Source: Rhodococcus rhodnii NBRC 100604 (lineage in GTDB: Bacteria > Actinomycetota > Actinomycetes > Mycobacteriales > Mycobacteriaceae). From it: a DNA stretch of 64,000 nucleotides. Below the pieces are notes generated by a model. That model was not told where the DNA came from and searched no databases. It was given only the letters and a program-made list of their open reading frames with translations. The DNA is taken from positions 1 through 64,000 of the forward strand of contig NZ_BCXD01000021.1 of assembly GCF_001894925.1 (NCBI RefSeq), read 5' to 3'. This document shows, piece by piece, positions 33,431 through 37,243 of the stretch (positions are counted from its first letter, which is position 1; each line of letters starts with the position of its first letter). The translations under genes were made by a program, and so were the position numbers.

Positions 33431-33451
33431 CCCCGCCCCCTCCGTCCGGCG

Positions 33452-33529
33452 GTTCTGCACCCCTTTTCGCATTCTGCACCCCGTTCAGCTGCCCGAACGG
33501 GGTGCAGAATGCGATTCGGGGTGCAGAAC
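33452..33529. terminator. 35-bp near-perfect inverted repeat with duplicated 11-mer
   Basis: Arms 33452-33486 and 33495-33529 pair over 35 positions with 3 mismatches around an 8-nt loop. Each arm carries the 11-mer TTCTGCACCCC twice (33453-33463 and 33472-33482, with the complements opposite). It lies 21 nt after the last gene of the uricase operon and has no U-run. It could end transcription or be a REP-like extragenic palindrome. Confidence 0.6.
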
Positions 33530-33588
33530 GGCGGGGCCGGAACGTGCGGAGTGGGCGCTGAGTGAGTGGCCGTGGGAGACTGGCGGCC

Positions 33589-33654
33589 ATGGACGATCGG
33601 GAGCACGCCGCGCACCACGCGTGGCCCCAGGGGTGCATCGCACACGGACGATAG
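33589..33654 (+). CDS. Possible leaderless 21-codon leader peptide
   Basis: ATG 33589 follows a GAGACT box (33576-33581) by 7 nt, the same spacing as other probable leaderless starts here, and opens a 21-codon frame ending in TAG. The product is His-rich (AAHHAW, IAHGR) and matches nothing I know. It lies upstream of the xanthine dehydrogenase genes and is followed at once by two hairpins. It may equally be chance; there is no codon-bias support in so short a frame. Confidence 0.28.
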   Translation: MDDREHAAHHAWPQGCIAHGR

Positions 33655-33702
33655 GCGAGGACCCGAGCCTCGCCCGCCCCTGCTGCGCGCCCGATCGCGC
33701 AG
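33654..33702 (+). promoter_or_regulatory. Two tandem hairpins before the xanthine dehydrogenase operon
   Basis: Hairpin 1: GGCGAGG (33654-33660) pairs with CCTCGCC (33668-33674) over a 7-nt loop, beginning at the last base of the small frame's stop codon. Hairpin 2: CTGCGCG (33683-33689) pairs with CGCGCAG (33696-33702) over a 6-nt loop. The ATG of the FAD subunit is 22 nt further on. This arrangement suits leader-peptide attenuation or a structured leader. Confidence 0.35.
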
Positions 33703-33723
33703 CTCGATCTCGCAGGACACGTC

Positions 33724-34542
33724 ATGGATCTCTCGTTCGTCGACGAGGTCGTCCTTCCCCGCAGTCGCGACGACCTCCCTCCGCCCTCCCCCGGCACGGC
33801 CTTTCTCGCCGGCGGGACGTGGCTCTACTCCCAGCAGCAGCCCGACGTCACGCGCGTCGTCGACCTCACGACGCTCGGCTGGCCCGCACTCACGGTCCAC
33901 GACGACGCACTCGAGATCGCCGCGACGTGCACGATCGACTCGCTCGCGCATGCGGAGTTCCCCGAACACTGGACGGCCGTACCACTCTTCCGGCGGTGTG
34001 CCGAGTCGCTCGTCGCGTCGTGGAAGATCTGGCGGACCGCGACGATCGGCGGCAACCTCGCACTGAGCCTGCCCGCCGGCGCCATGACGACGGCGATGTG
34101 CGCGCTCGGCGGCGAACTCACCGTGTGGACGCCGGACGGCGGGGCACGGACCGAAGCGGCCTCGACGTTCGTCGTCGGTGAAGGACGCAACACGCTCGCG
34201 CCGGGTGAGATCGTCCGCTCGATCCGGATCGGCGAGACAGCACTGCGCGGGAACGTCGCGGTGCGCAAGGTCGCGTACACGGCGCTCGGACGGTCGGGCG
34301 CGCTGCTCGTCGGCAGGCGCGGCGACGACGGCGTCACGCTCACCGTGACGGCGGCGACGGTGCGGCCGTCCGTCGTGCACTGGCAGGGCGTCCCGACCGC
34401 GGCCGAGGTCGCCGCCGCGATCGACGCGATCCCCGAGACCGATTGGCTCGACGATCCGCACGGCGAACCGGCGTGGCGGGCTCACGTCACGGCCGTGCTC
34501 GCCGAGGAGATCCGTACCGAACTGGCGGGAGACGCCCGATGA
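33724..34542 (+). CDS. Xanthine dehydrogenase family, FAD-binding subunit
   Basis: A 272-residue FAD subunit of a xanthine-dehydrogenase-type enzyme. The FAD pyrophosphate loop appears as LAGGTWLYS near residue 29, and [13 protein letters not shown] around 103 is the second FAD motif. The C-terminal CO-dehydrogenase-type domain is short. The ATG at 33724 has AGGA upstream. Its stop overlaps the start of the FeS-Mo gene (ATGA), so both would be made together. Without an intact Mo subunit it cannot work as xanthine dehydrogenase. Confidence 0.9.
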
Positions 34543-37243
34543 GAATCACCGTCGACGGACGCGACATCGACACGGCCCCACGCCCCGGCCAGTGCCTGCG
34601 CACGCTGCTCCGCGAGAACGCGACGTTCGCCGTCAAGAAGGGCTGCGACGCCGGCGACTGCGGTGCGTGCAGTGTGCTTCTCGACGGCGCGCCCGTGCAC
34701 TCGTGCGTCGTCCCCGCGCATCGCGCCGACGGCGCCGAGGTGACGACGGCCGCGGGACTCGGCGAGCCGGGCGATCTGCACACGACGCAACAGAACTTCG
34801 CCGATGCGACCGGCTTCCAGTGCGGTTTCTGCACCGCCGGCATGGTCGTGACAGCGTCGGCCCTCGACGACGCTCAGCGCGCGGACCTGCCGAGCGCACT
34901 GAAGGGAAATCTGTGCCGCTGCACGGGATATCGCTCGATCTGCGACGCCGTCGCCGGCGTGAAGGCCGTCGAGAACGACGAACCGGGCGACTCGTTCGGG
35001 CGGTCGGTGCGTCCACCCGCCGCCGAGCGCGTCGTGTCGGGTCGCGAGCCCTTCACGCTCGACACCACGATGCCCGGGGTCGCACACATCGCCGTGCTCG
35101 GCAGCCCCGTCGCGCACGCCCGCATCGTATCCATCGACACGAGCGCCGCCGAGAGCCTGGACGGCGTGCATGCCGTTCTGACGCACCGTGATTCGCCCGA
35201 CGTGTACTTCTCGACGGCGCGCCACGAGAACCGTGCCGACGATCCCGACGACACCCTCGTGTTCGACACCGTCGTGCGGTTCGTCGGCCAGCGCGTCGCC
35301 GCCGTGGTCGCCGAGTCGGTGGACGCCGCACGCCGCGCCGCCGCGCTGATCACGGTCGAGTACGACGAGTTGCCGGCCGTCCACGACCCGGACGCCGCGA
35401 GCGCCCCGGACGCCCCGCGCCTGCACGGCGACAAGTCGCACGAGTCCCGGATCGCCGATCCCGCACGCAATCTCGTCGCCGAGTTGCACGGTCACGTCGG
35501 GGACGTCGAAGCCGGGCTCGCCGAGGCGCGCAGCACCGGCGCCGTCGTCGAGAACACGTGGCAGACGGCGCGCGTCCAGCACGTCCATCTCGAGACGCAC
35601 GGCGCGATCGGCTGGCTCGACGACGACGGCCGGTTGACGATCCGGTCGAGCACGCAGGTCCCGTTCCTCGTCCGCGACGAGATCGCCCACATCTTCGGCC
35701 TGGACCGCAGCCGGGTGCGCGTGCTCGCGGCCCGCGTCGGCGGCGGCTTCGGCGCGAAGCAGGAGATGCTGCTCGAGGATCTCGTCGCGCTCGCCGTCCT
35801 GAAGACGGGCAGGCCGGTGCAGTTCGAGTTCACGCGCGAGGATCAGTTCACCGTCGCACCGTGCCGTCATCCGATGCGCGTGAAGGTCCGGGTCGGCGCG
35901 GGTGGCGACGGCGTGCTCACCGCGCTCGCGATCGACGTCCTGTCGGATGCGGTGCGTACGGCAATCATTCGGTCGGCGTCATGTTCCATGCCTGCAGCGA
36001 GTCGACGGCGCTGTACCGCAGCCCGAACAAGAAGGTCGACGCGCACGCCGTCTACACCAACAATCTCCCGTCGGGCGCCTTCCGTGGATACGGCCTGGGC
36101 CAGGTGATCCATGCGATCGAGTGCGCGCTCGACGAACTCGCGGCCGAACTCGGCATCGACCCCTTCGAACTCCGCCGCCGCAACGTCGTCGTGCCCGGCG
36201 ACGATCTGGTCGACGCCGAGGTGCAGCGCGACGATCTGACGTTCGGCAGCTACGGACTCGATCAGTGTCTCGACCTCGTCGAGGACGCGATGCGCCGCGG
36301 CAATGGCGCGAGTGCACCCGACGGCTGGAGGACCGGTGAGGGGATGGCGGCGTCGATGATCGCGACGGTACCGCCGCGCGGCCACTTCGCGACGGCGTCG
36401 TGCACGCTCACCGTGGACGGCCGCTTCGAGGTGCGTGCCGGCACAGCCGAATTCGGCAACGGCACGTCCACCGTCCACACCCAGATCGCGGCGTCGGCGC
36501 TCGGCACGACCGCCGACCGGATCACCCTGTTCCAGTCGGACACCGACATCACCGAACACGACACAGGCGCATACGGTTCCGCGGGCAGCGTCGTCGCGGG
36601 CACCGCCGTGCGCGACGCCGCGCGCCGCCTCGCCGACACCCTGATCGCGACGGCACGCGCCGTGAGCGGCGGCACCGGCGACGCCTGGCTCACGAACGAC
36701 GGCGTCGCGATCGACGACGCCCTCGTCCCGTACGGCGACCTCGTGCGGGGCGGTCCGATCACCGCCGACGGCAACAACGGCGGCAGCCCGCGCTCGCTCG
36801 TGTTCAACGTGCAGGGCTTCCGCGTCGCGGTGAACGAGACGACCGGTCAGGTGAAGATCCTGCAATCGGTGCAGGCGGGCGACGCCGGGACGATCCTCAA
36901 CCCCAACCAGTGCCGGGGCCAGGTCGAGGGCGGCGTCGCGCAGGCGATCGGCTCCGCTCTGTTCGAGGAGATGCTGCTCGAGAACGGCCGCGTCACGAAT
37001 CCCACGCTGCGCGGCTATCACATCCCGCAGCTCTCGGACGTTCCCGAGACCGAGGTGTACTTCGCCGACACGTACGACGAGGTCGGCCCGCACGGGGCGA
37101 AGTCGATGAGCGAGTCGCCGTACAACCCGGTCGCACCGGCACTGTCCAACGCGATCGCGGACGCCGTCGGCGTCCGGCTCCGGACACTACCGATGACGCC
37201 GGCCCGGATCTGGGCGGCGATGCGCGACACGCAGGACGGGTGA
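34539..37243 (+). pseudogene. Xanthine dehydrogenase, fused 2Fe-2S and molybdopterin subunit, frameshifted
   Basis: The N-terminal part carries two 2Fe-2S clusters: Cys36/41/44/56 ([11 protein letters not shown]) and Cys95/98/126/128 (CGFC, LCRC). It leads straight into the Mo-cofactor domain ([22 protein letters not shown]). Near 35949 the frame is lost: the first frame runs on to a stop at 36107 with unrelated residues. The family sequence resumes one base off, at [18 protein letters not shown], and continues to 37243 ([34 protein letters not shown]). One missing base between 35948 and 35952 would restore about 901 residues. It may be a real lesion or a sequence error. Confidence 0.88.

Follow-up and report, generated by a model that had tools for sequence, protein, structure and literature searches.

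In the tryptophanase operon of E. coli, a ribosome translating the TnaC leader is held at the stop codon and blocks Rho, and SpeFL is an ornithine-sensing leader peptide in which sensing of the small molecule leads to arrest at termination, both as described in the available part of PMC8429421. For the copper-related CruR/DUF2946 upstream ORF, the involvement of Rho was shown, according to the available part of PMC9426467. Among the literature matches listed, as far as their titles and abstract openings go, none deals with leader peptides that act on xanthine dehydrogenase or on purine genes, or that occur in Rhodococcus. Metabolite-sensing leader peptides are, to our knowledge, few. A known regulator of purine catabolism in actinobacteria is the transcription factor XdhR of Streptomyces. 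Canestrari et al. 2020 are said to have found that poly-cysteine leaderless small ORFs of mycobacteria act as attenuators. Here we describe a leader before the xanthine dehydrogenase genes of a Rhodococcus that is likely to be a translation-controlled switch of purine use not described before, and that belongs to a lineage-restricted leader-peptide family before purine-use genes, well supported for a family of three.

Like TnaC, as the accessible portion of its source presents it, the leader is a short ORF before a catabolic operon, residues near its stop are conserved, and its layout would fit a ribosome arrested on the stop codon. Unlike TnaC, to which we noticed no sequence relation, it has purine genes behind it and a hairpin that begins inside the stop codon, and arrest and Rho are putative here. 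The likeness to SpeFL, again to the extent that its source could be consulted, is that of a small-molecule-sensing leader with termination arrest, which for the present leader is presumed; the peptide, the organism group and the presumed ligand are all different. With CruR, in those parts of its description that were at hand, the leader shares a conserved C-terminal motif, a position at the operon head, a long G+C-rich spacer and an independent downstream start. The CruR proteins, by contrast, form a larger family marked by CXXC and RAPP motifs, and the present leader has neither. As in the mycobacterial poly-cysteine ORFs, the small ORF would be leaderless in the genome studied here (G000), and the organism is a related actinobacterium; unlike them it contains no cysteine run, its single Cys is a Gln in a further genome of the genus (G002), and the G002 ORF is not leaderless. 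A putative arrest-type, purine-responsive action of the leader may reasonably be inferred.

The leader lies in the window, the 64,000-nt stretch of Rhodococcus rhodnii NBRC 100604 DNA that was analysed, inside a purine-degradation cluster with amidohydrolases and uricase upstream and xanthine dehydrogenase genes downstream. The amidohydrolase stop (33430) and the ATG of the FAD subunit (33724) are separated by 293 nt, which contain a palindrome, a weak -10-like box, a 21-codon ORF, two hairpins and a Shine-Dalgarno-like AGGA. All features given here are on the + strand, except the palindrome, to which no strand is assigned. The box, GAGACT (33576..33581; GACACT in the relative G022 described below), shares 3 of its 6 bases with TATAAT and stands 7 nt 5' of the leader ATG at 33589, where the initial annotation had placed it together with the 21-codon frame. 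The ORF (33589..33654) encodes MDDREHAAHHAWPQGCIAHGR, the codons of its conserved decapeptide AWPQGCIAHG occupying 33619..33648, and ends with the TAG at 33652-33654. The annotated merging of this stop with a 7-bp hairpin is confirmed, as the G of TAG is the first base of a perfect stem (33654..33674, arms 33654-33660/33668-33674). A second hairpin before the FAD start (33682..33703, arms 33682-33689/33696-33703) had also been annotated; it is present, with 8 bp instead of 7. It is followed by GCAGGACAC with the AGGA (33712..33720), 6 nt before the FAD-subunit ATG. The FAD subunit of xanthine dehydrogenase (33724..34542) was assigned by family match to PF00941, and the fused 2Fe-2S and molybdopterin subunit follows (34539..37243). 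The latter carries one frame change near 35951, at which, compared with G022, the frames join at the relative's residues 470/471; the break is either a sequencing error or a real inactivation.

The palindrome (33446..33535) belongs to a dispersed repeat family and lies between the upstream gene and the promoter region of the leader. Its arms are 41 nt long, with TTCTGCACCCC units in both. The unit is present in 54 exact copies at 18 sites of this genome (the window and L126-L142; reversed control, 1) and, among 142 loci, occurs outside this genome as a single unit in L012. We take the dispersed palindrome to resemble a REP/REPIN-type repeat.

By themselves, the small frame and the hairpins of the window genome are barely above chance. 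When 33431-33723 was shuffled by mononucleotides, 2055 of 5000 sequences held a frame of 20 or more codons opening with ATG, and the folding of 33576-33723 gave z = -1.65, with 13 of 200 shuffles folding equally well. Positions 33652-33723 hold three seven-pair windows (two stems), and shuffles held at least one in 134 of 2000 cases and at least two in 37 of 2000. Rarer is a 7-bp stem beginning exactly at the last base of the stop, which was obtained in 132 of 20000 dinucleotide shuffles. Between 33300 and 33900 of the window, a consensus promoter scan returned no promoter, and a scan for intrinsic terminators (a hairpin followed by a T run) returned 0 terminator-like sites. It is the comparison with relatives that lends credibility to the small frame and to the first of the hairpins.

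The nearest relative searched is G022, a contig of Rhodococcus sp. HNM0569, whose FAD-subunit protein is 70% identical. Its leader, MTVHRRVALGSDAWPQGCIAHGN, is followed by TAG, a hairpin and then the identical GCAGGACAC ahead of the FAD start; the peptide end AWPQGCIAHG is unchanged and precedes the FAD-subunit gene as it does in G000. The ten codons shared by the two genomes differ at 0/10, 0/10 and 5/10 of codon positions 1, 2 and 3, and all five differences are synonymous (Fisher p 0.0018). For the FAD gene, 54, 48 and 114 of 269 codons differ at the same three positions. The DNA match between the window and G022 starts at 33619, inside the leader ORF, and no earlier; GGCCGTG stands just 5' of the -10-like box in both genomes. 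The spacers of G000 and G022 differ by 14 nt, which does not keep the frame, and on this ground we rejected the idea that the ORF extends the FAD subunit at its N terminus. The hallmark of codon-run amino-acid attenuators, a class that includes the poly-Cys leaderless ORFs, is lacking: the conserved end contains no run, and the His-rich part of the G000 frame is lost in G022.

The gene in front of the G022 FAD gene is a divergent DAO-type oxidoreductase, thus a promoter in the short intergenic region is the simplest reading. We compared FAD-subunit neighbourhoods at 30 loci, 29 besides the window. In 22 of the 29, an amidohydrolase stands directly ahead of the FAD gene, and the -1 to 9 nt between the two are too short to hold a leader; for one of these loci (L021) the assignment rests on no more than a match of 44 residues. 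In 7 of the 29, G022 included, the amidohydrolase was undetected within the available stretch. A related-locus search with the FAD subunit as query confirmed no relative.

We built a profile of the G000 and G022 peptides and compared it with 28 genomes of the genus. The next best match was in G002, ...AHATAWPKGQIAHGR, with E 0.0016 for one genome, or about 0.045 over 28 genomes; at a permissive limit of 10 the same profile gave some match in 27 of the 28. The G002 peptide, ...SHAHATAWPKGQIAHGR, is followed directly by TAG, its end reading AWPKGQIAHGR before the stop. The gene behind this leader matches PF06516 (387 bits) and encodes a purine nucleoside permease, a family found in 1 of the 28 genus genomes, namely G002, the FAD-subunit homologue of which is found in ordinary gene order with a 4-nt gap (L019). 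That the G002 match is a coincidence, leaving a two-species leader before the FAD subunit only, is very unlikely. The E value over 28 genomes and the lack of any other genus match bridging the two forms would suit such a coincidence, whereas the stop position, the stop-fused 7-bp stem (41 of 20000 shuffles) and the purine permease all lie outside the profile and nevertheless agree. An RNA model also matched at the G002 leader (E 0.0125), a result that is not independent of the profile match since it uses the same bases.

The permease gene (C1:1324932-1325858) was likely gained horizontally by G002. As a protein query it found homologues in 2 of 397 genomes of the order, and no such leader accompanies either of the two. 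Upstream of the G002 leader ORF (L089), after a DAHP-synthase-like gene named by eye, we observed an inverted repeat, GATAACC-TCCCTC-GGTTATC, that might serve as an operator or mark where the upstream unit ends.

Across the three genomes, the leaders (21, 23 and about 30 residues) are conserved only at the peptide end, and TAG ends the frame in all three. We thus find in three genomes what is expected of a nascent-chain leader, a short ORF directly upstream whose end is conserved at the amino acid level. It is unlikely that the conserved element is instead an RNA or DNA site, such as a structured leader or a protein-binding site, that falls in a chance open frame whose peptide has no role. Such a site would explain why GGNNNNATCGCNCACGG is common at the DNA level and why the hairpin is conserved, and the third-position excess between G022 and G002 is not significant (p 0.31). 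Against it, the five G000-G022 differences are all third-position and synonymous (p 0.0018), the excess is also seen between G000 and G002 (p 0.005), the frame is closed by TAG in 3/3, and no Rfam family matches. Indeed, a riboswitch or other Rfam RNA was rejected with 0 matches at the gathering score in the window, G022 (L010) and G002 (L089); the best sub-threshold matches were microRNA models on the perfect palindrome at 33442-33539. Even less probable, indeed extremely unlikely, is a micropeptide acting in trans. The conserved residues would be in keeping with one, but they are confined to the end, the lengths vary, and two unrelated proteins are encoded behind. Searches of Pfam and NCBIfam with the three peptides gave 0 families at E up to 10, a comparison weakened by the very short queries.

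A perfect hairpin of 7-8 bp starts at the last base of TAG in G000, G022 and G002. Counted from this base, the seven stem pairs are Watson-Crick in 21/21 cases across the three genomes, and four of the seven (pairs 2, 3, 5 and 6) have changed on both sides among species. The pairs were aligned by hand because automatic three-row alignments left the G002 arms unaligned. Stop-fused stems of the observed length arose in 11 and 41 of 20000 shuffles for G022 and G002, next to the 132 for G000; with a start allowed anywhere within six bases, the counts were 97, 10 and 42 of 5000 (G000, G022, G002). Of the initial annotation's proposals for relatives, then, conservation of the small frame and of the first stem, with its two-sided pair changes, is borne out, and the second stem, absent in G022, is specific to the window genome in this comparison. 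The purine-gene context extends to all three genomes, each with a purine-use gene behind the leader. The description of the frame as His-rich does not carry over to G022, nor does the leaderless start generalize: the G002 ORF has a GGAGG-like site ahead of its GTG start.

The distances from leader stop to downstream start are 69, 55 and 116 nt in G000, G022 and G002, and the spacers are C-rich (C:G = 31:21, 30:13 and 45:33). This excess of C over G is compatible with Rho, without being proof of it. In G002 the bases just 3' of the stop can pair over 10 bp with a segment upstream of the permease start (5 of 5000 shuffles), and this pairing and the G002 stop hairpin are mutually exclusive. The counterpart in G000 has just 5 bp (3299 of 5000 shuffles), and G022 has none of at least 5 bp. 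No structure hiding the downstream start was found to be common to the three, and the difference that a ribosome on the stop codon makes to the computed folds is not consistent among them; therefore we claim no masking mechanism. The spacers also bear on a distinctly unlikely explanation, simple translational coupling or a weak effect of the uORF, in which the spacer is kept open or ribosomes are delivered to the next start without any sensing. A uORF whose stop carries a hairpin, ahead of a gene with its own AGGA, suffices for this. It leaves unexplained, however, the ten residues conserved up to the stop, and 55-116 nt are long distances for re-initiation. Such distances were called incompatible with coupling by the CruR authors, in the available text of PMC9426467.

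Together these data point to a cis-acting leader-peptide switch that tunes purine-use genes via ribosome occupancy of the stop codon, a reading to which we give a probability of roughly 60%. Weighing against it are the small number of instances, three in all, the modest E value of the G002 match over 28 genomes, the non-significant third-position excess between G022 and G002, the inconsistent fold changes, the poor promoter match and the frame break in the window's dehydrogenase gene. Transcription would start just before or at the small ORF, and a ribosome would translate it, AWPxGxIAHG and one further residue bringing it to the TAG that opens the hairpin. While dwelling at TAG, the ribosome would cover ~12 nt downstream and keep the hairpin open; upon its departure the hairpin would form and change what becomes of the C-rich spacer of 55-116 nt, through Rho access or through pairing around the downstream start. 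Ribosome-protected fragments of M. tuberculosis end 12 nt 3' of stop codons (PMC9094748, in the part available). A ribosome waiting at TAG would therefore hold the 5' arm, which means that the hairpin is placed to report stop occupancy. Since conservation is confined to the peptide end, this occupancy is most likely determined by the nascent chain, as in TnaC or CruR. The chain would set the dwell time, probably on a purine-related signal, as the leader precedes either xanthine dehydrogenase or a purine nucleoside permease; both the signal and the direction of the effect are presumed.

More tentatively, the leader may be a portable purine-sensing arrest peptide, a version of the switch that we consider possible though doubtful. 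In this case AWPxGxIAHG would read a purine base or nucleoside and hold the ribosome at TAG with the hairpin open, switching on xanthine oxidation in two species and nucleoside uptake in one. If this were true, a nascent peptide would read a ligand of the nucleobase class, in a module that had travelled from one purine gene to another, unrelated one. The presence of one leader before two unrelated genes itself suggests that the regulatory module was either transferred or lost repeatedly. A purine-linked peptide family before two unrelated genes would offer a test of whether a nascent chain can read a nucleobase or nucleoside, and its conserved ten-codon end is short enough for mutational dissection. 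If real, the switch would add a translation-level layer to the control of actinobacterial purine catabolism.

The leader was found in 3 of the 28 genus genomes (G000, G022 and G002). With up to 3 mismatches, the pattern WPQGCIAHG was exact in G000 and G022 and gave one 3-mismatch site in G022, which was rejected as it lies inside long open frames without a stop. In 397 order genomes it was exact in G000, every other match having 3 mismatches. A scan of the named genome collection returned one record, that of G022; the pattern required Cys and was blind to the G002 form, so this single record understates the possible spread, and the window's own record was possibly left out. A pattern of the three instances, circular for its own members, found just these three among the 28 genomes at up to 3 mismatches (reversed control, 11 matches). 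With any stop allowed, it matched G000 exactly and 17 sites at 3 mismatches in the 397 order genomes; 6 of these sites were inspected in their surroundings, and none of the 6 is a leader. A looser exact pattern found G000 only among 394 class genomes, a plasmid search gave one match (E 7), and viral contigs gave 0 matches to the leader. Besides G000 and G022, the DNA search returned four short matches (E 4e-4 to 9e-4; G019, G018, G001 and G024), each of which falls within a long open frame, and the next-ranked RNA-model matches (G000 C13, G010 C7) lie within long genes. Furthermore, the heptapeptide QGCIAHG is also found in a PknG-like kinase of G007 (L088 2254-4809, ...YEVQGCIAHGGLGW; closest solved relative PknG, 2pzi), where it presumably falls in the glycine-rich ATP loop. 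Same-scoring profile matches at the same model positions occur in 13 genus genomes, of which G007 is the one checked, and the overlap with the kinase is possibly a coincidence.
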